A stretch of 64,000 nt of DNA from Chloroflexota bacterium (GCA_012270555.1 JAAXIC010000031.1:121350-185349), one strand, 5' to 3'. Shown: positions 2,866 through 27,671, numbered from the stretch's first letter. The notes: a model not told the origin generated them from the letters alone. Numbers and translations are program-made.

Positions 2866-3536
2866 GGCTCTACCCTATTGGCGTAGAGCTGCTCACGGAC
2901 CGCAACGATGTACGGCAGCATGCGAAAACTCTCGCCGGCGTCGGTGCCGTAGCCGGCTACCCAGCGGTCGGGCACGTCGAATCCAACGAAATCAAGGGTC
3001 AAATTGGAGCGATTACGCGTCACCTCCGGCGACGGTTGCTCGAGGCGCTTTGACAGCAGGGCACAAATGCGCACCGAGCGGACGCCTGCAGCGAGCACGC
3101 GCTGCTTGAGGGCAGTGAGCGTAAAGCCCTGGTCTATCAGGTCTTCAACCAAGAGCACGTCCTTGCCCGCGAGACCTGCTGGCAGTCTCGCCATGCTCAC
3201 CTCGCGCACCTTTTCATCGGGCTGCTTGATGGTGTTGCCGTAGGTGCTCGTGCGAATGAACTCGCAGCGGAACTCCAGACCGCCAAGCCGCGAGATTTCG
3301 CGGCCAAGGTCTGCGGCAAAGACAAATGCGCCCTTCAGGACTACCAGTAGGATAAGCTCGCTGCTCTCGGCGCAAGCCGCATGTATCTGCTGCGCCAGAC
3401 CCGAAACCCGCTGTTGCAGCACTTCTTCGGGAATGAGGAGGCAATCTACTCTGTCTGCCAGGCCCGACGGCAACGGGTCGTCACGTCCGGTAGCCAGGCC
3501 GCCCTCTGGCACTGTGATGGTCCGATCAAAGCGCAT
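2862..3536 (-). CDS. hpt: Hypoxanthine/purine phosphoribosyltransferase
   Basis: Type I PRTase that transfers phosphoribose from PRPP to hypoxanthine or guanine. The PRPP loop VLLVEDLIDQGFTL is clear; the usual DTG is DQG here. The downstream VGFDVPDRWVAGYGTD matches the base-binding end of Hpt. The frame extends further 5' into the ceramidase-like gene, but I chose the ATG at 3536 (224 residues) because it removes that overlap and matches family length, although about 40 residues still precede the conserved core. It overlaps ade by 4 bases. Confidence 0.88.
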   Translation of the reverse strand: MRFDRTITVPEGGLATGRDDPLPSGLADRVDCLLIPEEVLQQRVSGLAQQIHAACAESSELILLVVLKGAFVFAADLGREISRLGGLEFRCEFIRTSTYGNTIKQPDEKVREVSMARLPAGLAGKDVLLVEDLIDQGFTLTALKQRVLAAGVRSVRICALLSKRLEQPSPEVTRNRSNLTLDFVGFDVPDRWVAGYGTDAGESFRMLPYIVAVREQLYANRVEP

Positions 3537-6283: not shown

Positions 6284-8269
6284 CTAGGCGTCGATATAGC
6301 GCCAGACGGTGCCGCCCAGCGAGACGGCCCACACCGCGTGGTCTTCGGCGTAATTGGGTGAAACCAGCAAGGAGACGATTGCCTTGTTGTCCAGCCCTTC
6401 ATTGATGTTTTGCCACGTAAGCCCTTCGTCAGCGGACTTGTAGACACCCCGGCTGGTGCCGGCATAGATCGTCGTATCCTCTTCATAGTTAGGGGAAATC
6501 GCCAAGCAAACTACCGCCGCGGTAGCCTCGCCGATGGCATCGCCGACCCAGAGATTCTTGCCGCGCCACATGGGGCGGAAGAAGCGCGTCGCCGTGGCAA
6601 TGAAGAAGTTGCTGTAGTCCTCGTCTGTACCCGAGTAGTTCGGCGGCATGGCGAAGCTAATCCACTGCGCTCCCGTCGCGTGAACGAGAATGCGCTTCCA
6701 GATTTCGCCGCCGTCGGCGGAACGCCACACGGTAATGGTGCTCGCGTAATCGCCTTGGGAAGCACGGAAGGTACCCAGCAGAAGGGTATTGTCATCAGCG
6801 AAATTCGGTGAGAGCGCTACGCCGATCACGTCTTCCTCGCCAAACGTCTCTTCGGCCCTTTCCCAAGATTGACCCGCGTCGCGGCTGAAGTACAACGCGC
6901 CGCCAGGCCCGCCGGCAACGACGAGGCGATCATCGGCAAAGGTGTTGGACACGGCAAGCACGCGGAGGTCTTGCGTCTCTTCGTCGATGCCCTCGTTACT
7001 GGCTTCCCAGTTCTGTCCGCCGTCGGCGGAAAGCGCGATGCCTTGGTGCGTCGCGGCAAAGACGGTCGTGTCGTTGGCATAATCCGGCGAGATCAAGAGC
7101 GATGCGACCTGCATCTCTTCCATGCCGGCGCCGGCCGGTTCCCAGGATACACCCTCATCGGTGGAGCGCAAGACGCCGTCTTCGAGACTTGTGGCAAAGA
7201 GCGTACCGTCTTGGTGGCAGTTCGGAGAAAGCGCCGTGCCCAGGAGCGAACGCGCGGCAAGGCCGGCCACGGCCGGTTCCCAATGCGCGGCGTCGCCATC
7301 GGCCCGTAGAGCGCCTTCGCGGTGTACGCCGGCTAAGACGATGTCGTCGTCACCGGTTCCCGTTGTCAACAGGCACAGCACCGACGAGTCTTGCTCGATG
7401 GCACTCTCCCAGGTCGCGCCGCCGTCGGTTGAACGGTAGATCGACCCTTCCGCGGTGCCGGCATAGGCGAGACTATCCGCTGCAAAATCGGGTGATAGGC
7501 AGAGCGCGTTGATGGATACACTATCCAGTCCGCTGTTCGCCTCCTGCCAGTTCGTGCCTCCGTCGGTAGACTTGAAGACGCCCATGTCCTCAGTACCGAC
7601 CAGAATCGTGCGGTCCTCGGCGAAATTCGGCGAAACGGCAATCGCCTGGATCGCCATGCTATCGAGCCCTCTATCCACCAGCCGCCACGCGCGGCCCTCG
7701 TCGAGCGTTCGATAGAGGCCGTCGCCGCCCGCTATGAATGCGGTCTGATCTTCCGCAAAGTCCGGCGAGATGGCTACGGCCTGAATGCTCAACTCCATGA
7801 TGCCGAAATTCGCCGAATTCCAGGTACGGCCGCGATTTGTCGACTTGAACACGCCGTCTTCCTGTGTGCCGGCCAGCATCACACCATCGTCGGCGAAGTT
7901 CGGCGAAACGGCCAGGCACGTCACAGAAGCGGCGCCCTGCCAGAAATCAAGTTGCTGCCAGGTCTCACCGCCGTTATCAGAACGATAGACGCCGCCCTCC
8001 AAAGCGCCTGCAAATGCTACTTCATGGTTCGCAACGTTGGGCGCGAAAGCGAGCGCCTGGATGTAAGGGCTCGTGATGCCTTCGTTGGAAATCTTCCACG
8101 TCTTGCCCCGATCTTCGGAGCAAAACACTCCGGCCATGGTACCGGCCAGTACCAGGTTGTTTTCGTTAAAGCTTGGCGAAACGGCAAGTGACGCAACTGT
8201 GCCACCAAGGCGCTGCCCAACCACCTCCCATGCTTGCTTTTCCATCACTGTCGGCCCGGACGTACTCAT
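6284..8269 (-). CDS. Asp-box (BNR/sortilin-like) beta-propeller protein
   Basis: 661 residues built almost entirely of about 50-55-residue repeats. Each has a core like LAVSPNFAEDxTxLAGT followed by an Asp box (SxDxGxTW), for example SDNGGETW, STDGGATW, SADEGLTW. I count eleven good Asp boxes and one degenerate copy (RADGDAAHW), enough for one large or two stacked propellers, similar to Ycf48/VPS10-type folds. No signal peptide is visible at the N-terminus, so it may be cytoplasmic or exported otherwise. No catalytic sialidase residues are recognisable; the role is unknown, perhaps protein or glycan binding. Confidence 0.75.
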   Translation of the reverse strand: MSTSGPTVMEKQAWEVVGQRLGGTVASLAVSPSFNENNLVLAGTMAGVFCSEDRGKTWKISNEGITSPYIQALAFAPNVANHEVAFAGALEGGVYRSDNGGETWQQLDFWQGAASVTCLAVSPNFADDGVMLAGTQEDGVFKSTNRGRTWNSANFGIMELSIQAVAISPDFAEDQTAFIAGGDGLYRTLDEGRAWRLVDRGLDSMAIQAIAVSPNFAEDRTILVGTEDMGVFKSTDGGTNWQEANSGLDSVSINALCLSPDFAADSLAYAGTAEGSIYRSTDGGATWESAIEQDSSVLCLLTTGTGDDDIVLAGVHREGALRADGDAAHWEPAVAGLAARSLLGTALSPNCHQDGTLFATSLEDGVLRSTDEGVSWEPAGAGMEEMQVASLLISPDYANDTTVFAATHQGIALSADGGQNWEASNEGIDEETQDLRVLAVSNTFADDRLVVAGGPGGALYFSRDAGQSWERAEETFGEEDVIGVALSPNFADDNTLLLGTFRASQGDYASTITVWRSADGGEIWKRILVHATGAQWISFAMPPNYSGTDEDYSNFFIATATRFFRPMWRGKNLWVGDAIGEATAAVVCLAISPNYEEDTTIYAGTSRGVYKSADEGLTWQNINEGLDNKAIVSLLVSPNYAEDHAVWAVSLGGTVWRYIDA

Positions 8270-8968: not shown

Positions 8969-10531
8969 GTGAAGGTATCCAACGTCAACACCCATAACAT
9001 CAGGGCGGCCATCGAACTTGGATGCAGGACGATGTCAAATGTGTTCAACGCCGATGACAACGACATCCCCTTCTTCGGGTCCGAGGTTCTCCCCAATCCC
9101 CGGCTCAGCTTCAGCATGGTCCACTCCGAATCTCATGTGCCGGGCAGGCACCTGAACGCCCTGCTGAATGCCGAAGACGCGGCTGGCGTCTCGATCTCGG
9201 AAGAGGTGATCGAGAAACACGCCGCAGCGGCCTTCTTCTCATATTCCGGCCCCGTGCCTCTGCCCATGAACCGCGACCGCGTGGACGGGCCCATCGAGAA
9301 CTTCAACGATCACAACGTGCGTGAGGGAATGCATGCCCTTTACGCCCTGGTCAAGTATCGAAACTCCGACATGGCGAGGGAAGTGGCCGAATCCAGCATT
9401 GAGTTCATCCTCGATGCGTGGGACCCGACGAACGGCTGGGACCGGGAAGGGATAACGAAAAACCACGGGATCCGCTGGACCCGGGAAACCACGTTTATTA
9501 CGGGCATCGGCCGCGCCATCGGCCCGCTGGTCAAGTACTACCGGGCCACCGGCTCGGGTAAGGCGCTCGAACTGGCGTCTCTGCTGGCGGAGAAGGCTAC
9601 GTCCGAGTTCTTTTTGCCGGACGGATCGTATGACCGCGAAAAGTTCGGCGTACACACGCACTCGACGACCTGCGTCATGTCCTCGCTGGCGCAGCTTGCG
9701 GATCTGACCGGCGACGCCGCATTGCTGGAGCGCGTACGGGCCTTTGCCGACAACGGGCTGTGGGAGATCCGCGACGAATTGGGCTGGGTGATTGAGAGCA
9801 GCGCCGACGACGTCCCACCTGACAAGGGAGAAGGCAACAACACCGGCGACATCGTCGAAACTGACCTGATACTCGGCCGGCACGGCTATCCCGGGTACTA
9901 CCAGGACGCCGAAAGGATACTGCGCGGGCACCTGTTGCCGTCCCAACTGCGCGACGTGGATTTCGTCCCCAAACCTGCCAATCCAGCAGACGAAGATGGT
10001 CTGAGAAGAGTGAGGGAACGGCACCTCGGAGCGTTCGGGTTTCCGGCGCCTTACGGCCACCGCCCGCTTGGGCTTGAGCGGGTCAGCTTCAACATGGACA
10101 TAGTCGGCGGGGTGGTCGGCACCCTCTGCGAAGTTCTCAGGGAGGGCGTCGTGAAAGGGCCCGATGGCGTACGGGTGAATCTGCTGTTGGACCAGGACAC
10201 GCCGGACGCGCGGGTGGAGGCGGGCACATCGTCAGGCCGCGTAAGCGTAACGACCAGACACGCGGCGCCACTTTGGATCAGATTGGCGCGGTGGGCCGAC
10301 AGGGCGTCGTTGCAGGTCAGGGGGGCGGAGGACTATCGGTTCTTGGGAGACTACCTGCTCGTCGCCCAACCTGAACCGGGCAAACCGATTTCACTGGAAT
10401 ACCCGGCGGCACGGACTGACATTGTGCTCGCTCACCGCACGCGCAACATCAGGACGGTCCTGGAAGGAGACGCGGTGGTGGCGATGGAAAACTTCGGCGC
10501 TGACTTGACGTTTTTCGACCTGCTCGACTGA
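8969..10531 (+). CDS. Putative (alpha/alpha)-barrel glycosidase-like protein
   Basis: About 520 residues. Alternating helical segments with aromatic and acidic residues (for example RWTRETTFITGIGRAIGPL, EGITKNHGIRW, HTHSTTC), followed by a beta-rich tail (VRVNLLLDQDTP to the end), recall six-hairpin glycosidases of the GH127/beta-L-arabinofuranosidase type. The family is not certain and catalytic residues are not assigned. I chose the GTG at 8969 because AGGAG lies 7 bases upstream; an ATG at 8876 is possible, and codons before about 8840 would lie in comM-derived sequence in another frame. It sits alone between two copies of the comM 5' region, so it looks acquired. Confidence 0.5.
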   Translation: MKVSNVNTHNIRAAIELGCRTMSNVFNADDNDIPFFGSEVLPNPRLSFSMVHSESHVPGRHLNALLNAEDAAGVSISEEVIEKHAAAAFFSYSGPVPLPMNRDRVDGPIENFNDHNVREGMHALYALVKYRNSDMAREVAESSIEFILDAWDPTNGWDREGITKNHGIRWTRETTFITGIGRAIGPLVKYYRATGSGKALELASLLAEKATSEFFLPDGSYDREKFGVHTHSTTCVMSSLAQLADLTGDAALLERVRAFADNGLWEIRDELGWVIESSADDVPPDKGEGNNTGDIVETDLILGRHGYPGYYQDAERILRGHLLPSQLRDVDFVPKPANPADEDGLRRVRERHLGAFGFPAPYGHRPLGLERVSFNMDIVGGVVGTLCEVLREGVVKGPDGVRVNLLLDQDTPDARVEAGTSSGRVSVTTRHAAPLWIRLARWADRASLQVRGAEDYRFLGDYLLVAQPEPGKPISLEYPAARTDIVLAHRTRNIRTVLEGDAVVAMENFGADLTFFDLLD

Positions 10532-19464: not shown

Positions 19465-22252
19465 CTAGTCCTGTATAACCCTTGCGAGGCCGGCAGCGAT
19501 CATCGTGTATTCTACACGCACCCCTCTCTTGGACTCTTCCTCTTCAATTCGCTCATCGCGACGCCTCCTGGAGTTTCGTATTTGTGATTGACGCATTCTC
19601 TTGATGCGCTCCTCAGTGATCGGCATGAGTTGACGCCGGAGATTCTCTATATGTGAACTAAAGTGTCGATCCAGGCTGGCAATGCGTACATCGATCAGGG
19701 CATCATTATACTGCCTTTCAGACACTTCTTTGTCTTGCCTAACACTCGACGCATAGTTGTCAGCTGCATCCTGAAGTTGCAGGAATCTGCCCTCTTCAAT
19801 TTCGACTTCTGGCTTTCTATCGCCTTGATCACTTGGTAATTCCTTCAAGAACACCTTGGAATGAAATGGTTGAGGGTCAGAGTCATCAGTGGAGACAAGG
19901 ATAGGGACCAGAGTGCATTGGGGAGTAGCCGAGTGAATATCAAACCGGTAGAGAAAAAAAGCGAAGTCCCCATGGGGTGTCTCAGAACTTCGATCAATCC
20001 ATAGTGCGGTCTTGGGAATCCGGCGACCACCAGTCTTCCTAAAGTGAGCCAGTGCGGCTTGTGCCAACGGATGGTGCAAGGTCACGAACTCAATGTTTCT
20101 TCTCTTGGCCGTTTCAGCATCGAACGTAAGAGTCACTAGACGAGGTTCAGACTGTAGTCGTTTCAGGAATTGCTCATTCAAGGCCCTGTTTCTTTGGCTT
20201 GCCCGCGCACTTTTAACAAAGTAGTTGGCCAATTCGCTTCTTGGATAAACATAGAATGTGCGACCATCTTCACTTTGATCGAGATGCACGTGCGGAAGCG
20301 CGTCCGCAAGGAATGTCTCCACCAACGCACTGACTTCCTGGGCCGACACAAAACGGCCGGAAGATCGTATCTCCTCTATGTCGCGTTGAAGCAAGAAGTC
20401 CTGCCCCAAGAATAGGCCTTGTTCACTTTCGAATGCCTTCTGCTCTTGCCGGTGTCGTTCTAGGATTCGTACCGCGTTTTCGACCTTCAGTCTCTCCTCT
20501 TCTGCGGTTAAGCGTGCCAGGAAGATGTCGCGTGATAACCTGCTCACAACCTTACCGAGGATCGGCTCCAAGTCGCCAATTGAGGATTCGAATAGTCCAA
20601 TTCGGTTGTACAACCGCTCAAGAATACGAGTTTCGATAGTATCTTCGATTACCAGATTGTAAATCCTTATGCGCTTGTGTTGTTGTCCGAATCTATCAAG
20701 CCGGCCGATACGCTGCTCAACTCGCATGGGATTCCACGGTAAGTCATAGTTGAACATTGCGCCGCAGAACTCGAAGTCCAGACCTTCGGCGCCGACTTCT
20801 GTAGACACCATTATCTTCAGGTCGCTGCGATCTCGGAACGCGTCAATCCGGCGTTGTCTTTCTTCTAACGAGATCTGGCCGTGAATAGTCTCTACGGCGA
20901 GTCCTTCGCGAGTTAATCGGTCGAATAGATATTGAGCAGTACCACGGAAGAAAGAGAACACCAGCACTTTACAACTTGGGTCATCATCGAAAAGATGGCT
21001 GAGTGCTTTCTTGAACTCGTCGTACTTTGTGTCCTGGCTACCTAAATTCTCGCAGAGTCCAAGTAGCTCGGTAACTTGCTGACGATCGGTGCCAGTAAGT
21101 TGGCGGGCAGAAACATCATCTTCTCTGATGTCCGGATCTGTCATTTCGAGGTCTAATCCAATACTGGATGACTTGAGTGAGCGCTCAAAGTGTGCCTTTA
21201 GCGCCTGAATGCAACTTGCTGCCTGCCGTTCTCGTATGATTACTGCAAAAATCGAAATCTCGCCTGTGCCTTTTCGCTGGGAGTGCTGCCAGCGAACGAA
21301 GTCATCGACGGCATCGTAGAACTTCCTTTCTTCATGGTTTAGCTTCACTTCAATAGTAAAGGGGCTGCGCTTGGCAGTATCGGCTTGCACATCTCTCTTC
21401 CTAGTACGATTGAACACTCTGGCTAGTGTGTGGAGTTCTAGCAAGTCCCTCTCTACGCTGACTATCTCTTCATTACTTGGAGCGCCTTTTCGCCCTAGAG
21501 ATTTCATGGCTCTGCTATAAGTGGGGTTACTTGGATACATTTTCCCAAAGAGAGTGGACTCTACTGATCTTAATTCACGCCGCGCCCTTGAGAATCTACC
21601 CTGCGAAGCCAATCGAGACGCTCTGCTTATGAACATGTTCGGTCGAAGTCTCTCTTCGAAGTCCTCGAATCGTTCAAAGTCACCGGCGTCAATGAGCCGC
21701 ATCAAATTGAATAAATTCTCATTGCCTGTCTGTAGTGGAGTAGCAGAAAGAAGTACTAGAGCGTGCGATGGCTCGGTTATTGTAGTTGCAAGTGCAAATG
21801 ATTTTGTTGTTGGATTCCTCAGATGATGCGCTTCGTCAATGACTATCAGGTCAAAATCGACAGCTTGTTCATCAAGTTTTCCCCGAAATTCATCTCTGCG
21901 GAGCATCTCCAGCGAGCAAATGCCGCGCAACCTCACCGCATCTCCTAGTTCATATTGGTCATGCAGGAATCGTCTGAAGGATGCGGCATCCAATATGTCG
22001 AATTCTTCATCGAATCGAGAAATAAGCTCGCGGCGCCACTTCTCTCGAAGCCCGGCAGGGCAAATCACCAAGACTCGCTTCAAGTCACGGCGCGCAGATA
22101 GCTCTCTGTAAATCAGGGCTGCTTCTATCGTCTTTCCTAGTCCGACCTCATCCGCTATCAGAATGCGTTGGTTAGGTGACTTGAGGAATCTCAACACCGG
22201 TTTAAATTGGTAGGGATAGTATTCGATACGCGATGCGCCCAGCGAATACAAA
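19465..22252 (-). pseudogene. SNF2/RapA-type helicase, C-terminal part (interrupted by transposon)
   Basis: About 926 residues of a RapA/HepA-like SNF2 ATPase: Walker A DEVGLGKT, DEAH box, LLSATPLQT (motif III), and the helicase C-domain motif QRIGRLDRFGQ. A helical C-terminal extension rich in charged residues follows. There is no proper start: the frame can open only at a TTG (22251), with an in-frame TAA four codons upstream inside the transposon end. Its missing N-terminus is at 27335-27671; joined across one 8-bp target copy the reading frame is exact (DTLY then SLGASRIEYYPYQF), giving about 1,038 residues. It may be a solitary phage-defence helicase (DISARM DrmD-like, for example), but no partner genes are visible. 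Confidence 0.85.
22245..22252. repeat. Target-site duplication, left copy
   Basis: AATACAAA directly outside the left transposon end. It is identical to 27335-27342. Eight bases is the duplication length known for the IS1595 family. Confidence 0.9.
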
Positions 22253-22277
22253 ATAAATTACACCCATTCTAACCAAA
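22253..22277 (+). repeat. Left terminal inverted repeat
   Basis: Begins AT, then ATTACACC at 22257-22264 and TAACCAAA at 22270-22277. Aligned without gaps to the reverse complement of 27310-27334, 19 of 25 positions match. Confidence 0.82.
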
Positions 22278-22286
22278 AAGGAGAAA

Positions 22287-22304
22287 CCCCCGGGATTCCG
22301 GGGG
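22287..22304 (-). terminator. Terminator at left transposon end
   Basis: Seven-bp GC stem (CCCCCGG / CCGGGGG, loop AATC), followed on the minus strand by TTTCTCCTTTTT. It closes the minus-strand transcript of the 150- and 47-residue genes and would insulate the helicase fragment from read-through. Confidence 0.8.
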
Positions 22305-22328
22305 CTTCCTAGGTTATTCGAGTGCTCT

Positions 22329-22472
22329 CTAGTCCTTGCTCTCGCCTCCACTATTGCTTCCGCTACTATCCGAAGTGCCTGTGTCAGCAGGTGGAGTTCT
22401 GTCTGGTGCTGGTGGTGGAGGAGGGGGCTTATCTCCCTTTTCGGTTATTCTTTCTTCTCTCTTGTTCTCCAT
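22329..22472 (-). CDS. Small proline/serine-rich protein (47 aa)
   Basis: Short frame from ATG at 22472. The protein is charged at the N-terminus (MENKREERITEKGDK), has a run of six prolines, then an acidic Ser/Gly tail (SDSSGSNSGGESKD). No membrane segment; probably disordered. It starts 13 bases after the 150-residue membrane protein gene stops and just before a strong terminator, so it is the second gene of a two-gene transcript. Function unknown. Confidence 0.55.
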   Translation of the reverse strand: MENKREERITEKGDKPPPPPPAPDRTPPADTGTSDSSGSNSGGESKD

Positions 22473-22484
22473 GCATCTCACTTT

Positions 22485-22937
22485 CTAGTCTGGAAGATTG
22501 ACCCATGTGAACCATAGCAGAAGCACTGCACCTGCTGCGAATCCAAGTATGGCTATGCTATTCGTAATGTCAACCATTCTACGAATCCATGTCGAAGGCT
22601 CCTTCGCATCGTCCTCATGTTCAAACCTCGTAGCGTTCAGATATACCATCTGCTGACTAACTGAAATCCGGCCAAAAGTAAATGATACCAATGCTGCAAG
22701 CAGACTAAGTGTACAAGAACCCCACGAGCCAAAGACCAGGTGTGTGTGCCCCATATCATCCCACACTCTTTGTAACAACAGAAGCGACAGTCCGACTGTT
22801 CCGCTTGACAGAAAGATGACGGTCCGGTCCCGCATGTGTCCTTGACCAGTATACATCTGGTCCAACACCTTGCGATGATCAAGCAATGCTTGGTCATGAA
22901 GGCCAATAGGGTTAGATGGGTTCTTTGTGATTGCCAT
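22485..22937 (-). CDS. Three-helix membrane protein of the transposon
   Basis: 150 residues with a charged N-terminus (residues 1-36) and three hydrophobic segments at about 39-57, 69-88 and 126-147. A polar loop with EHEDDAKEPSTW lies between the second and third. The ATG has a strong GGAGG site 7 bases upstream. It is divergent from the transposase, with which it shares a 147-base intergenic region. Not recognised; perhaps a passenger with a membrane role, like the other small membrane proteins of this element. Confidence 0.7.
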   Translation of the reverse strand: MAITKNPSNPIGLHDQALLDHRKVLDQMYTGQGHMRDRTVIFLSSGTVGLSLLLLQRVWDDMGHTHLVFGSWGSCTLSLLAALVSFTFGRISVSQQMVYLNATRFEHEDDAKEPSTWIRRMVDITNSIAILGFAAGAVLLLWFTWVNLPD

Positions 22938-23014
22938 TCTAATCCTCCAAATGTACGAATGAGATGTTTATGTAGATTATAGCAAAACAACGCCCCAAAC
23001 AAGCCAAGCCATCC

Positions 23015-23043
23015 TTGACTTTGGTCAATCTCCGTAGTATAAT
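23015..23043 (+). promoter_or_regulatory. Sigma-70 promoter of the transposase
   Basis: TTGACT at 23015-23020, a 17-base spacer, and TATAAT at 23038-23043. An inverted repeat GTAGTAT (23034-23040) / ATACTAC (23055-23061) spans the -10 box and the predicted start, a likely operator for repression of transposition. Confidence 0.78.
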
Positions 23044-23084
23044 ATGAGTATAGAATACTACACAAAAGAGATTAGGTCAAGCCG

Positions 23085-24068
23085 ATGTCAAAGAAAGCGC
23101 CAGGCAAGCACTTCCGCACTGGCATATCGCTCATCGAGTTGTCTCAGATGTTCCCCGACGATGAGACGGCGGAGAAGTGGTTTGAGGAAATGCGCTGGCC
23201 TGACGGTGTAGTCATCTGCCCCTTCTGCGAATCCAAGCGCGTGACCGAGCGCGGCAGTCACCCGAACAACCCCTACCGCTGCAAGGACTGCCGCAAGTTC
23301 TTTTCGGTTAAGACCGGCGGCATCATGCACGCCAGCAAGATTGGCTATCAGAAGTGGGCGTTTGGCATCTACCTCATGACCACAGGCATCAAGGGCACGA
23401 GCAGCATGAAGCTGCACCGCGACCTGAGAATATCGCAGAAAGCCGCTTGGCACATGGCGCATCGCATCCGCGAGGTGTGGAAGGTAGACCATGACAAGTT
23501 CACCGGCACGGTTGAGGTAGACGAGACCTACGTGGGCGGCAAGGCCAAGAACATGACGCAGGAACGCAGAGAGCGATCCGGTGTTGGGAAAGCCGGTTCC
23601 GGCAAGGCTATCGTCGTCGGAGCTAAGGAACGGGAATCTGGCAAAGTGGTGGCAAAGGTGGTCAAAGGACGCACGTACAACCACCTGGTTGGCTTCGTTG
23701 ACAAGAACGTGAAGATGGGCGCCACGGTTTACACGGATGACAACAAGACTTATCGGACCCTGGAAGTTGGGTTCACCCATGAGGTTGTGAAACACAGCGC
23801 CAACGAGTACGCTCGCGGTGACGTGCACACCCAGGGGATTGAATCATTCTGGGCGAACTTCAAGCGCGGCTACCGAGGCGTGTATCACCACATGAGCCCA
23901 AAGCATCTCCAACGCTACGTAAACGAGTTCTCCGGGCGGCATAATGACCGCCCATCTGATACTAAAGTCCAGATGAATAACATAGCGAAAAACATGCTTG
24001 GTAAGCGATTGCGGTACGAGGACTTGATAGCAGACGAGGATAACAAACGTAAAAGGAGAGATGGGTGA
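23085..24068 (+). CDS. IS1595-family (ISXO2-like) transposase
   Basis: 327 residues. An N-terminal zinc ribbon (C45, C48, C66, C69) and WPDGVVICPFC are characteristic of IS1595/ISXO2 transposases. The catalytic domain shows VEVDETYVGG (D146), VYTDDNKTY (D218 or D219) and GIESFWANFKRG (E253 candidate). Length is normal and no frameshift is seen, so the enzyme may be active. The ATG overlaps no other gene and follows a consensus promoter; the TGA overlaps the start of the next gene. Confidence 0.95.
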   Translation: MSKKAPGKHFRTGISLIELSQMFPDDETAEKWFEEMRWPDGVVICPFCESKRVTERGSHPNNPYRCKDCRKFFSVKTGGIMHASKIGYQKWAFGIYLMTTGIKGTSSMKLHRDLRISQKAAWHMAHRIREVWKVDHDKFTGTVEVDETYVGGKAKNMTQERRERSGVGKAGSGKAIVVGAKERESGKVVAKVVKGRTYNHLVGFVDKNVKMGATVYTDDNKTYRTLEVGFTHEVVKHSANEYARGDVHTQGIESFWANFKRGYRGVYHHMSPKHLQRYVNEFSGRHNDRPSDTKVQMNNIAKNMLGKRLRYEDLIADEDNKRKRRDG

Positions 24069-24277
24069 TGAGCGATTCTGAGGCACCTGTTGAACATATC
24101 GCGCCCTTGGACGAGAGACTAGTGCGGCGTGAATTCAGAAGGCTTGGTATAGCTGATGGTGGCAAGTACGCCAACATGTTCAGAGAGGCGATACGAGACG
24201 GTCGGAAAAAGGCCAAGGCTTCAAACGTCAAAGAGCGCAACAAGGAAGATCGCGCTGACGACGCCGAGAGCAGCTAG
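24068..24277 (+). CDS. Small basic protein coupled to the transposase
   Basis: 69 residues from an ATG that shares its A with the transposase TGA (TGATG); a GTG one codon earlier is also possible. It has an acidic N-terminus, then a basic stretch (RRLGIADGGKYANMFREA, RDGRKKAKASNVKERNKED). It is soluble and probably helical. The overlap implies coupled translation, so it may assist or regulate transposition. I do not recognise the family. Confidence 0.6.
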   Translation: MSDSEAPVEHIAPLDERLVRREFRRLGIADGGKYANMFREAIRDGRKKAKASNVKERNKEDRADDAESS

Positions 24278-24291
24278 GCTATCCCAAACGT

Positions 24292-24322
24292 CAGTCTCCC
24301 AAATCACCAACTTGGGAGACTG
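24292..24322. terminator. Hairpin between convergent passenger genes
   Basis: Perfect 11-bp stem CAGTCTCCCAA / TTGGGAGACTG with a 9-nt loop, placed 15 bases after the stop of the 69-residue gene. Only short T-runs follow on either strand, so termination is plausible but not certain. Confidence 0.5.
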
Positions 24323-24439
24323 GCAACTAACCTCCCGCCTTTTAATGGGTAAGGATCGTGAAGGCGCCTCTCAGCCCCTCAGCCGGCCCGGCTACCATCT
24401 CTAGCAAGAGCGAATATATATTCGGGCGTCCTATCCACT

Positions 24440-24646
24440 TTATTTGCCCCTCTCGTCTAAGTTCCTAAGATGCGAGAGTATCTCTTTCAGAAGATTGCGA
24501 ATCTCCTGCAAGGTCACTGTGTCACGGATGGCCGCCTCTTCGGGACTGTTAGGCACGTATATGCCCTTTGAGCGGAGGCGCTCCTCTATCTCGTCGATGG
24601 ATTCTTGACCGCTCACGAAACTGCTACCTTTAGGTTGTGTCGTCAA
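24440..24646 (-). CDS. Small acidic passenger protein (68 aa)
   Basis: Starts at a TTG that overlaps the TGA of the preceding gene (TTGA). The sequence contains an IDEIEERLRSKGIYVP segment and a C-terminal amphipathic helix (TLQEIRNLLKEILSHLRNL), suggesting a coiled-coil or partner-binding protein. The codon pattern is protein-like. Function unknown. Confidence 0.5.
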   Translation of the reverse strand: MTTQPKGSSFVSGQESIDEIEERLRSKGIYVPNSPEEAAIRDTVTLQEIRNLLKEILSHLRNLDERGK

Positions 24647-24954
24647 CTTTTCAGGTTGCGTATTATGGCTTGATTCTTCAATGTTTGTTGTTTTGTTCTT
24701 TGCTCTTTCATTTCTTCAAGCGTTTCTTTCCCGGTCTTAGAAAGACCACCTACTGCAAACATGAACTCTCCATCATTGGTCAAATGAGGCGCGATTATGA
24801 AAAGGTCAGCATTGATGCTATCAGCTATTGCAGTTCGCACTTGGTCAAGTTTGTACTGATAGTGAGCCAGGCTGATTATCTGATGACCGCCTTCAAGCCG
24901 GTCCACAGTTTCAAGCAACTCAATTACAAGGTTGGTATGGTCGTCAGAGTTCAA
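24643..24954 (-). CDS. Passenger protein of unknown function (103 aa)
   Basis: The start is a TTG with AAGGGAG eight bases upstream. There is no membrane segment; the protein is mixed alpha/beta with a hydrophobic strand DLFIIAPHLTNDGEFMFAVGG and a basic helical tail (ETLEEMKEQRTKQQTLKNQ). It is first gene of a two-gene overlap operon with the 68-residue protein. Its 5' end lies close to the divergent RNA-gene promoter at 24979-25007. Not recognised. Confidence 0.55.
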   Translation of the reverse strand: MNSDDHTNLVIELLETVDRLEGGHQIISLAHYQYKLDQVRTAIADSINADLFIIAPHLTNDGEFMFAVGGLSKTGKETLEEMKEQRTKQQTLKNQAIIRNLKS

Positions 24955-24978
24955 GTTAACTACTCCCTTACAGAGCTA

Positions 24979-25007
24979 TTGCCAACTTCCTGTGATTGTG
25001 GTATACT
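24979..25007 (+). promoter_or_regulatory. Sigma-70 promoter of the structured RNA gene
   Basis: TTGCCA at 24979-24984, an exact 17-base spacer, and TATACT at 25002-25007. The predicted start is near 25013-25014. No protein gene follows on this strand before the terminator. Confidence 0.75.
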
Positions 25008-25096
25008 ATGGATGTAGCAACAAGCCAATATAGGGCTTGTTGCGGGCGAACACACGACTGGCTTTTATCTAGCTAAAGATATAGGGTGAGCGAAAA

Positions 25097-25129
25097 ATGC
25101 CATTCCTGGGACATGACTACGTAAAGTAG
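25097..25129 (+). CDS. Possible 10-residue leader ORF inside the structured RNA
   Basis: ATG to TAG encoding MPFLGHDYVK. GGGTGAG lies about 6 bases upstream, a usable ribosome-binding site, but it is buried in the GGGTGAGC/GCTCATTC stem. The stop lies in a small hairpin (CTAC gtaaa GTAG). It could be chance; if real it suggests translation-dependent switching of the RNA fold. Confidence 0.25.
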   Translation: MPFLGHDYVK

Positions 25130-25236
25130 CCACACCAGAATTGGTAAGTCTATGCGTTTCTGCATAGAGACTCCTTTCTAGCTCATTCCTTTTCCATTCT
25201 AGTGTGTTCGCCCGCAACAAATCCTATAGCTCAAAC

Positions 25237-25270
25237 GAAGAGCCAGTCTGAGACTGGCTCTTCGTCTTTT
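25237..25270 (+). terminator. Terminator of the structured RNA gene
   Basis: Perfect 13-bp stem GAAGAGCCAGTCT / AGACTGGCTCTTC with a single-base centre, then GTCTTTT on the plus strand. Confidence 0.85.
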
Positions 25271-25318
25271 GAGTATAGCATACTCCCTTTTACCCCGTGA
25301 GGCAATTGTGGGTGTTTC

Positions 25319-25453
25319 CTAGAACTTCAACCGCCTCGCCCACTCAATGACGGCTTTCCGAAACAGGAAGAGCACGCACACGCTGAAGATCAGTGCAACC
25401 ACGACCATGACCTCGGGGTGTTCCTGTATGTAGAGGATGGCTTGGTCAAACAT
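25319..25453 (-). CDS. Small single-pass membrane protein (44 aa)
   Basis: ATG at 25453 with GGAG 8 bases upstream. A short polar N-terminus (MFDQAILYIQEHPE) is followed by one transmembrane helix (VMVVVALIFSVCVLFLF) and a basic end (RKAVIEWARRLKF). The start overlaps the end of the superinfection-immunity-type gene by 8 bases, so translation is coupled. Probably works at the membrane with that protein; function unknown. Confidence 0.6.
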   Translation of the reverse strand: MFDQAILYIQEHPEVMVVVALIFSVCVLFLFRKAVIEWARRLKF

Positions 25454-25712
25454 TCTCTTTCTCCACATTCTCTTTCTCTTCGCCTTCCTGCTCTTGTCCT
25501 ACTTTTTGCACAACCGTGATATTGGTTTGTGCCTCCGTCCCAAATGCCATTATCAAGGCGATTACCCAGCCAATGATTATCCAGCCGAAGAAGAAGTTGA
25601 CGAGAGCAATCTGAACGGTATTCGACCGTTTTCGATACAGGGCAATGCCAACTGGAATGAAGTACAAACACAGCAAGAATACGAATAGGAGTATGCCGCC
25701 TATGGCTTCCAT
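25446..25712 (-). CDS. Superinfection immunity domain protein
   Basis: 88 residues from the ATG at 25712; the longer frame upstream overlaps the preceding gene and is not protein-like. Two membrane helices flank a conserved core (LYFIPVGIALYRKRSNT, then NFFFGWIIIGWVIALIMAF) matching the T4 Imm-type superinfection immunity family (Pfam Imm_superinfect). The tail is highly acidic with a duplicated EKENV. In phage T4 Imm blocks entry of superinfecting phage DNA; the role of bacterial and transposon members is not established. Third-last position in the secreted-Imm-44aa operon. Confidence 0.75.
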   Translation of the reverse strand: MEAIGGILLFVFLLCLYFIPVGIALYRKRSNTVQIALVNFFFGWIIIGWVIALIMAFGTEAQTNITVVQKVGQEQEGEEKENVEKENV

Positions 25713-25731
25713 GAGGACTGATTCCTTTCTG

Positions 25732-26514
25732 CTAACTGCAAAGTGTCTGCTGCTCGATTTTCGTGAGGTTATCCGAGAACAGCCTGGCTCTATCCAAGTG
25801 CGGGAACCACTCATTGGTTAGTCGCTGCTCGACAAGGCTTGGTTCAAGCGTCGTGGTGATTTCAACATAGACCTTGACACCATTCGTAATGTGAAAGACC
25901 CAAGCAGCGATTGGCGCATGGAACGCCTTACCCTGCCATGTGTCCGGTGTCTCGGCTATGATTATCTCCGCAGTGAAGTTGTAGACTGCGCTTTGGGAAC
26001 TGAGCCGTCTTTGCCATTCGGCAGACCCGTAGAGAGGCACGTTGCCTACCGGCTCAGATGTGATTGCGAACCACTTGTTCAGTTCAGTTTCATACCCTTT
26101 GATTGCTATTTGCATGGCTTGCACATACGCCCGGTCCTCCTGTGGGATGCACGCGATGCTCTCAGTGATGGGGGTATGGTCAACGTAGTCCGCTTCCCAG
26201 AAGTAGCGCTCGGTGTTGAGACGCCGCACAAGGCCATGAGGTCCGTTTATCCAGGTGCGGTAGCCGTCAGTAAAGGCCGTCCAGTTGTCGGCCTTGCGCC
26301 ACGCCATGAGGCCACCTGTGGTCTGCTGGTTGCTGTCGCCTATGGCGTTGTAGCGCTCGTTCTCGAGGCATTCGCCGACAATGTCGTGACCAATAAGGTC
26401 GCGCAGTGCCTTGAAGCCAAGACGGAACTCACAGTCAGCAGCGGCAATGGGAGTTGCCGTTAATAGCAGAAGGACAAAGGCAAAGAAGATCGAACGGGGT
26501 ACAAGCGAACGCAT
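25732..26514 (-). CDS. Secreted passenger protein (260 aa)
   Basis: A clear signal peptide (MRSLVPRSIFFAFVLLLL, cleavage near TPIAAA) precedes a domain with HDIVGECLENERYNAIGDS, TTGGLMAWRKADNWTAFTDG and YRTWINGPHGL, a motif I recall from secreted Chloroflexota proteins of unknown role. A second half (140-260) has no known motif. There are cysteines at C28, C49, C121 and near the C-terminus. The ATG has a strong GAGGAGG 9 bases upstream. It is the first gene of an operon with the Imm-type and 44-residue membrane proteins, 19 bases before the next start. Confidence 0.75.
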   Translation of the reverse strand: MRSLVPRSIFFAFVLLLLTATPIAAADCEFRLGFKALRDLIGHDIVGECLENERYNAIGDSNQQTTGGLMAWRKADNWTAFTDGYRTWINGPHGLVRRLNTERYFWEADYVDHTPITESIACIPQEDRAYVQAMQIAIKGYETELNKWFAITSEPVGNVPLYGSAEWQRRLSSQSAVYNFTAEIIIAETPDTWQGKAFHAPIAAWVFHITNGVKVYVEITTTLEPSLVEQRLTNEWFPHLDRARLFSDNLTKIEQQTLCS

Positions 26515-26556
26515 GAGGGTGCCTCCTCACGGTGAACACGATTAAACAATTGACTA

Positions 26557-26651
26557 GGCACAGTCAGTGTCTTAAGGTGAGCCCGCGAGGAGACCGATGT
26601 AGCATTGTTCAATCGTGTCTCCTGACTCACCTTAAGACTTTCAACTGTGCC
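26557..26651 (-). ncRNA. 5' leader hairpin of the passenger operon
   Basis: A 95-nt nested inverted repeat. The outer stem is GGCACAGT/ACTGTGCC (26557-26564, 26644-26651); the middle is a perfect 13 bp GTCTTAAGGTGAG / CTCACCTTAAGAC (26569-26581, 26626-26638); the inner is GGAGACCGAT with ATCG-T-GTCTCC (26589-26598, 26612-26622). The minus-strand promoter at 26659-26687 would start transcription at about 26652, so the operon RNA begins with this hairpin, 42 bases before the start codon region. It may stabilise the mRNA or act as a regulatory element. Confidence 0.65.
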
Positions 26652-26658
26652 TGCGTTC

Positions 26659-26687
26659 AGTCTATGAGGAAGCCCGCAAAGGGTCAA
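26659..26687 (-). promoter_or_regulatory. Promoter of the secreted-Imm-membrane operon
   Basis: On the minus strand TTGACC (26687-26682), a 17-base spacer, and TAGACT (26664-26659). The predicted start falls at the first base of the leader hairpin. Confidence 0.6.
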
Positions 26688-26730
26688 GGAACTGGAGGAA
26701 ATAACCGAAAAGGTGTCAAGAGGGATTAAG

Positions 26731-26759
26731 TTGACACGGAGAATCTGGACAGGCATACT
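26731..26759 (+). promoter_or_regulatory. Promoter of the tandem structured RNA
   Basis: TTGACA at 26731-26736, a 17-base spacer, and CATACT at 26754-26759. The predicted start is near 26766, ten bases before the first structured unit. It is divergent from the operon promoter at 26659-26687. Confidence 0.55.
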
Positions 26760-26775
26760 AAGAGCAAGCAAAGCC

Positions 26776-26927
26776 GCCAAGTGCAGGACCTTCTGTGGGG
26801 AACATCCCCCACTAGAGGCTTTCGAGCTGCACAAGGCAGAATGCCGGGCAAGAGCCGCTATCAAGCGCAGCGCCTACTGTAGAGAAATCTCTACTAGAGG
26901 TTTGGAAACCTGCGCAAGATAGCGGCT
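26776..26927 (+). ncRNA. Tandem pair of covarying structured RNA units
   Basis: Unit 1 (26776-26837) and unit 2 (26853-26927) share one plan. The basal stem is GTGCAG/CTGCAC in unit 1 and GCGCAG/CTGCGC in unit 2. The arm is GTGGGG/CCCCAC versus GTAGAG/CTCTAC. A small hairpin is GCT-TTCG-AGC versus GTTT-GG-AAAC. An AA/AA symmetric loop lies below the basal stem in both, and unit 2 adds a 10-bp outer stem (AGCCGCTATC / GATAGCGGCT). Paired changes preserve every stem, at least four compensatory pairs, so structure rather than sequence is conserved. An open frame (26713-26922) crosses it but would start upstream of the predicted transcript. Confidence 0.65.
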
Positions 26928-26985
26928 TTGCGACTCCAGTGTATCATCCCTCGGAAAGCAGAGAAACACCCGAAAAGGTGTCAAG

Positions 26986-27013
26986 TGGACTTACGCGTGT
27001 TTTGTGGTATAAT
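26986..27013 (+). promoter_or_regulatory. Promoter of the AT-hook gene
   Basis: TGGACT at 26986-26991, a 16-base spacer, and a perfect TATAAT at 27008-27013. Motif copies lie immediately upstream and 19 bases downstream, which suggests repression. Confidence 0.6.
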
Positions 27014-27096
27014 CAAGACGTGAGTTTTCATCGAAAAGGTGTCAGTAGGATTTATGGCATGGTAGTCTATAGGTACACAGAAAGGATGATGGTGCC

Positions 27097-27285
27097 ATGT
27101 CTAAATCCACCAAGTCAAAGGACGAGGACAAGTCTGAGATTCTCAGCGGTCCTCCCTCCGAGAGGCCCAAGCGCAAGCGCGGGCGACCTCTCAAAGGTCT
27201 TCCGCCCAGGATTCCCGACACTCCTGAGAACGTCGCAAAAGCTGTCGTGAGCGTCCCCCGCGACCGTGTCCCCCGCCCCGAATAA
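27097..27285 (+). CDS. Small AT-hook DNA-binding protein (62 aa)
   Basis: Highly basic centre with a canonical AT-hook, KRKRGRPLKG, flanked by acidic (DEDKSE) and proline-rich segments, then a PPRIPDTPENVAKAVV segment that I recall from other small AT-hook proteins of mobile elements. The ATG follows GAAAGGATG. It is probably the regulator of this block, binding AT-rich minor grooves such as the nearby -10 regions, or a transposition helper near the right end. The role is inferred from motif and position. Confidence 0.68.
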   Translation: MSKSTKSKDEDKSEILSGPPSERPKRKRGRPLKGLPPRIPDTPENVAKAVVSVPRDRVPRPE

Positions 27286-27309
27286 CCAGAGAAAAAACAC
27301 AAGAAAATC

Positions 27310-27334
27310 TTTGGTTATTTTAGGTGTAATCCAT
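27310..27334 (-). repeat. Right terminal inverted repeat
   Basis: Read inward on the minus strand it begins ATGG, then ATTACACC and TAACCAAA at the same spacing as the left end. 19 of 25 positions agree with 22253-22277. Confidence 0.82.
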
Positions 27335-27342
27335 AATACAAA
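27335..27342. repeat. Target-site duplication, right copy
   Basis: AATACAAA, identical to 22245-22252. Collapsing the two copies restores the helicase reading frame. Confidence 0.9.
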
Positions 27343-27671
27343 GTGTCTGACAGCGGGGAGCTAGTTTTGAGCAGGATGAACTCACGTAAGAAGACCTTGT
27401 GCGGCAGGTATTCAAGAGCCGGTCGAGTTGGGACAGCTTCTAGTTCATGCTCGCTTAGAGTTGGTTCGTCGGTAGCACTGAAGAATACCCTATAGTCAAA
27501 TCCTTCAGTACCACGAATTGGCTCTCTAATTATGAGTCCTTCGCGCGCAGGTTCTCTCTTTACCCGTACCCTGTCTCCAGGTTTGAAGAGCGGATTCTTT
27601 CCCTTTGATTGAGGTTGGGGCTTTAGAGTGGGCAATCGACTTCGTTTCTGATTGCTTTTTGTTCGTGCCAT
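27335..27671 (-). pseudogene. SNF2/RapA-type helicase, N-terminal part
   Basis: From the ATG at 27671, 112 helicase codons encode a basic leader and a small beta-domain (FKPGDRVRVKREPAREG, then YRVFFSATDEPTLSEHELE) that in this kind of SNF2 protein precedes the ATPase core. After DTLY the frame continues into the transposon for six codons (YGLHLK) and stops at 27315. The natural continuation, SLGASRIEYYPYQF, is found at the other edge of the transposon, 5.1 kb away. Alone this piece has no catalytic motif. Confidence 0.85.

Follow-up and report, generated by a model that had tools for sequence, protein, structure and literature searches.

The window analysed here (the whole 64,000-nt stretch of DNA from a Chloroflexota bacterium, with positions counted from its first letter) contains a helicase gene on the minus strand that is split by an element of 5,082 bp (22253-27334). 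The gene is cut after its first ~112 codons, leaving an N-terminal part at 27343-27671 (minus strand; ORF call and reconstruction of the joined frame) and a C-terminal part with SNF2 and Helicase_C domains at 19465-22252 (minus strand; domain search). The helicase matched the PADLOC DrmD model nearly end to end (2.8e-148), and the ORFs adjoining it are, by our reading of the sequence, presumably a short-chain dehydrogenase and a dioxygenase. The 8-bp sequence AATACAAA is present as an exact duplicate at the two borders (22245-22252 and 27335-27342), and imperfect 25-bp inverted repeats, identical at 19 of 25 positions, lie just inside it: ATAAATTACACCCATTCTAACCAAA at the left end (22253-22277, plus strand) and ATGGATTACACCTAAAATAACCAAA at the right (27310-27334, minus strand). 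Removing the 5,082 bp and one repeat fuses the flanks to an open helicase frame of 1,038 aa (SPLSDTLYSLGASRIEYYPYQF). The duplication, the inverted ends and the restored frame had each been proposed in a preliminary description of this DNA, and all three were recovered. A terminator-like hairpin (22282-22309, minus strand; 12-bp stem and T tail) points outward from the element.

The uninterrupted helicase gene, anticipated in a related genome, turned up in a congeneric genome (G002:C54, locus L003). The intact G002 helicase is 83% identical in amino acids over 1,038 aa, free of gaps; at the insertion point there is one AATACAAG, DNA identity across the junction is 85%, and the whole element, with the passengers between its ends, is missing. 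This empty site is stronger than any chance argument. The companion expectation, that the same ends would recur elsewhere around identical cargo, failed: no such copy was found in 150 relatives, a DNA search of these with the whole element matched pieces of the transposase and one host-type domain only, and the transposase is single-copy in its own genome assembly, on a contig of 281,739 bp. The suggestion that the insertion was fairly recent is plausible in view of the perfect duplication, the open transposase frame and the sister species' empty site, but there is no second copy by which to date it.

The transposase (23085-24068, plus strand) is complete and in open frame, and is preceded by a sigma-70-like promoter, TTGACT-17-TATAAT (23015-23043, plus strand; 11/12 match). 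It has an N-terminal zinc ribbon and a DDE domain, with Pfam matches to DDE_Tnp_IS1595 (1.1e-42) and Zn_ribbon_IS1595 (6e-10) and a match above cut-off to the NCBIfam IS1595 transposase model (9.6e-56). Alignment showed that the catalytic residues D146, D218, E253 and K260 are intact, each being shared by 100 or 101 of the 101 relatives aligned, and the zinc-ribbon cysteines C45, C48, C66 and C69 are conserved as well. These matches support its assignment as an IS1595-family DDE protein, and agree with the earlier view that the element belongs to this family and has an intact transposase. An N-terminal zinc ribbon is present in all IS1595 groups except IS1016.

The element is far above plain-IS size, as had been pointed out, and carries extra ORFs. 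The estimate of about nine extra small genes is fair as an upper count; some of these ORFs, e.g., those at 22329-22481 and 24440-24646, may not be genes. Left of the transposase is a predicted membrane protein of 150 aa (22485-22937, minus strand) without a Pfam or NCBIfam family, for which one weak match was obtained among 40 genomes of the class. ORF calls and domain searches gave, to its right, a 70-aa ORF without family overlapping the transposase stop (24065-24277, plus strand), a doubtful 68-aa ORF with no family above cut-off (24440-24646, minus strand), a 103-aa ORF with a weak, below-cut-off likeness to DUF2513 (24643-24954, minus strand; E 0.015) and a 49-aa one-helix membrane ORF (25319-25468, minus strand). 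The next ORF encodes a small membrane protein with an Imm_superinfect domain (25446-25814, minus strand; PF14373, 9.8e-15), which likely starts near 25712. Domains related to Imm_superinfect are common in the class, so the domain alone is no proof of phage exclusion. The last of the group is a secreted protein of 260 aa (25732-26514, minus strand; DNA search and comparison with host genes), whose N-terminal ~112 aa form a domain of host type, with 60-75% identity to four further genes in this genome; its sharing with these host genes suggests capture in the host lineage. At the DNA level, the secreted-protein domain (WRKADNWTAFTDGYRTWINGP, 26184-26442) recurs throughout the class, with 75-82% identity in the genus. 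PADLOC detected no defence family among the cargo of the window element.

Structured stretches had also been noted within the element, and folding upheld them, with z-scores of -9.1, -5.3 and -5.8 for three regions designated R1, R2 and R3. R1 (25013-25272, plus strand) is a candidate non-coding RNA formed from an inverted repeat that is 93% complementary and closed by a long-range helix of 27 bp (25029-25055 with 25202-25228). A promoter-like TTGCCA-17-TATACT, with TG before the -10, lies ahead of it (24979-25007, plus strand), and an intrinsic-terminator-like hairpin with a 14-bp stem and CTTTT stands at its end (25235-25265, plus strand). Within R1 there is a 10-codon ORF (MPFLGHDYVK) with a ribosome-site-like AGGGTGA (25096-25128). 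An Rfam scan of the whole element, R1 and R3 included, gave no match (best E about 1), which rules out R1 as a known RNA such as 6S. No copies of R1 were found in plasmids, and in blastn searches against all retrieved loci R1, R2 and R3 matched only themselves. R2 (26555-26656), upstream of the gene for the 260-aa protein, is a long and almost palindromic hairpin of three parts. A likeness between R2 and a hairpin beside an R3 copy in G002 was no better than that of shuffled controls and was dropped.

R3 (26771-26924, plus strand) consists of two units with one fold, unit A at 26771-26842 (fold and covariation) and unit B at 26855-26924, which shows two-sided base changes relative to unit A and to two copies in G002; a promoter-like TTGACA-17-CATACT lies ahead of them (26731-26759, plus strand). 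A model built from the two units detected a copy in an IS1595 element of G002 (L072, E 2.8e-5), and the model with the L072 copy added detected a second, chromosomal G002 copy between tRNA genes (E 3.8e-7). Across the four copies 96% of the pair cells are paired and two-sided changes occur in 11 of 22 pairs, against at most 46% paired and two such pairs in slid controls; since the alignment has four rows and was fitted to the model, this support, though strong for so few sequences, is provisional. We considered the possibility that the structured stretches are DNA features, nested hairpin repeats copied along with the element, and not RNAs. Hairpins fold on either strand and R2 is almost palindromic, as this explanation would have it; R3, however, scores 88 bits on one strand versus 20 on the other, its conserved single-stranded parts are asymmetric, a promoter-like site lies upstream, and half of its pairs carry the two-sided changes, so that we regard the DNA-feature explanation as rather unlikely. 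By fold and covariation, R3 is a candidate for a new RNA motif. A match to the model in G032 was rejected as chance, the DNA there reading as coding and without the conserved core.

The chromosomal copy in G002 (L278:6408-6462) lies between tRNA-Pro and tRNA-Ile genes, upstream of an ORF for a 57-aa membrane protein and with a gene containing the secreted host-type domain nearby. In the window, R3 is flanked by a 31-nt direct repeat in three plus-strand copies (26698-26728, 26963-26993 and 27024-27054; core CGAAAAGGTGTCA), which within the genome is confined to the element.

Relatives of the element were sought in the same class, where 14 related elements with 8-bp duplications, GGGGATTATATAC-type inverted ends and lengths of 1.9-4.4 kb were obtained, and by a transposase-alignment scan of 84,980 species genomes, from which the best 80 of at least 578 loci were taken. 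For 62 of these 80 the limits could be placed, with ends of 24 bp and duplications of 8 bp (61 exact and one with a mismatch; 78% A+T). Sixty of the 62 exceed plain-IS size at 1.7-5.4 kb, the other two being about 1.25 kb, and the median for those delimited among the best 80 is about 2.8 kb. By the same criterion, 46 relatives delimited on viral contigs, whose transposases are in nearly all cases ~42% identical, have a median length of 1.8 kb versus 2.9 kb for the genome set. Passenger carriage is the rule among the closest relatives of the window element, and the clade is a large lineage of transposons with cargo, most of it undescribed.

The usual order within the clade is a transposase near the left end, then the cargo, then a small basic protein near the right end. 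In the window this is a 62-aa protein (27097-27285, plus strand; clade HMM) in its customary position, 49 nt short of the end, with an AT-hook-like RGRP motif (KRKRGRP) followed by a TPENxA motif (IPDTPENVAKAV). Neither Pfam nor NCBIfam gave a match for it. A profile trained on 14 members was positive in 36 of 76 elements, 22 of them outside the training set, and 25 of the 36 proteins are encoded on the plus strand no more than 120 nt from the right end; among 80 viral-contig loci the match was convincing in the two closest relatives only. To judge by these profile matches the right-end protein is a marker of the transposon clade, and it is probably an accessory of transposition or of its regulation.

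IS1595 elements end in terminal inverted repeats with GG(G) tips. Most delimited relatives have GGG, whereas the window element, whose left end has otherwise the same layout as the GGGAATTATATAC ends of relatives, has ATA and ATG, which leaves its present mobility uncertain. The deviant tips would suit a decaying composite, in which a plain IS1595 element arrived before its extra genes and RNAs, these being added by other insertions or recombination, and the whole no longer moves as a unit; the same origin could be read from cargo genes that share no history with the cargo of relatives, from the host-genus domain in the secreted gene and from the single copy. Yet the 8-bp duplication is perfect, the transposase and its catalytic residues are intact, and the right-end protein is where the clade has it; moreover, with nearly all delimited relatives above plain-IS size there is no need to assume a plain IS as precursor at this site. 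We find the composite origin distinctly unlikely, and conclude, with a probability of about 0.95, that the window contains a complete passenger-carrying IS1595 transposon (tIS) that inserted into a then intact DrmD-like SNF2 helicase gene and that this transposon belongs to a clade spread over many phyla.

From what is known of the family, the DDE transposase of such a transposon would bind the ends of ~25 bp and move everything between them, so that the DNA between transposase and right end would travel along. In the clade this interval would act as a cargo bay of variable content, with the small basic AT-hook-like protein as its right border. The bay of the window element holds small membrane proteins, a secreted protein built on a host domain and no fewer than two candidate RNAs, R1 and R3 with its two units, with promoter-like sites upstream. 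This is probably regulatory or defence-type cargo, which would serve regulation or phage defence.

The cargo of the relatives is of another kind. Their 139 cargo ORFs include 28 N6/N4 DNA methylases and 15 HNH nucleases, along with five Mrr and two BglII-type endonucleases and one Mom, and the window element shares none of this enzyme cargo (methylases, nucleases). Rfam identified 10 tRNA genes inside seven IS1595-type elements (L072:9405-9479; L077:9100-9175 and 6514-6588; L079:845-917 and 3108-3179; L120:5822-5896; L134:10835-10910; L152:7340-7413 and 9012-9110; L163:6990-7068), nine of which were also called by ARAGORN. Those of L072 and L134 have the serine anticodon GCT in a body with a short variable arm, and in L077 anticodon loops of 8 or 9 nt are possible. 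In a further clade element, L080, tandem long hairpins (7572-7698 and 7710-7835) near the left end have similar cores and different outer stems.

Passenger-carrying IS1595 elements are usually known as scattered cases; in contrast, nearly every close relative here is loaded, with cargo differing from element to element. The kind itself is already established (PMC3129680, PMC11891212, PMC5704250), and what is new is the wider clade, the right-end protein and the RNA cargo. By their published descriptions, the tIS of this family, such as those of the ISNha5 group (Siguier et al. 2009, via PMC3129680 and PMC11891212), have in common with the window element an IS1595 transposase, terminal inverted repeats, an 8-bp duplication and passengers unrelated to transposition; on the same basis, the window element differs in its cargo, including the structured RNAs, and in its right-end protein. 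MTnSag1/tISSag10 and tISCpe8 likewise combine an IS1595 transposase with passengers, but they are mobilizable and tISCpe8 carries lincomycin resistance (PMC5704250), neither of which was seen among the scanned ORFs here. Such mobilizable members of the IS1595 family (PMC5704250) raise the alternative that the window element is an integrative mobilizable element, or a genomic island, and no more than employs a transposase of this family. We hold this to be highly improbable, since domain searches found no relaxase or conjugation gene in the scanned ORFs of the window element and there is none among the tallied cargo families of its relatives. The eukaryotic Merlin / IS1016 group shares the DDE_Tnp_IS1595 domain and the 8-bp duplications, but is without the N-terminal zinc ribbon that the window transposase has (PMC8101967).

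The best 80 of the at least 578 loci fall in 13 labelled phyla, including Chloroflexota, Pseudomonadota, Acidobacteriota, Gemmatimonadota, Rhodothermota, Nitrospirota and Binatota, and one bin of the clade is labelled Thaumarchaeota. Bins may contain wrong contigs, so a lone odd label such as that of the archaeon is no proof; several clade loci lie on contigs of 0.4-6 Mb. Phylum labels on the transposase tree require 28 changes, compared with a minimum of 12 and a shuffled mean of 38.7, which indicates some host signal and much mixing. Record titles for most of the best 80 loci point to marine-sponge MAG projects, and we take the SB06xx and Aplysina bins and the OX/CATO assemblies to be sponge projects too. 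The jk18x bins belong to an Ircinia study (PMC9531527), and the RHO, COS, IRC and CAR bins would correspond to the sponge species of PMC8163846. By this reading of project names about 75 of the best 80 loci are sponge MAGs, and the hosts have habitat in common more than phylum.

Robbins et al. (PMC8163846) reported an enrichment of restriction-modification genes in sponge symbionts; their introduction described evidence of lateral gene transfer among symbionts as lacking, and the study screened for transfers of this kind. The elements of the clade offer a concrete, testable carrier for such transfer. The new candidate RNA motif and the oddly constituted tRNA genes on these mobile elements are leads in their own right. 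It is about an even chance, in our judgement, that this IS1595-type lineage serves the marine sponge microbiome as a common vehicle for genes, extending over at least 12 phyla and ferrying DNA methyltransferases, restriction nucleases, unusual tRNA genes and new structured RNAs in the space from the transposase to the clade-specific right-end protein; if so, a shared IS1595 carrier would be one vehicle behind the restriction-modification enrichment of sponge symbionts.
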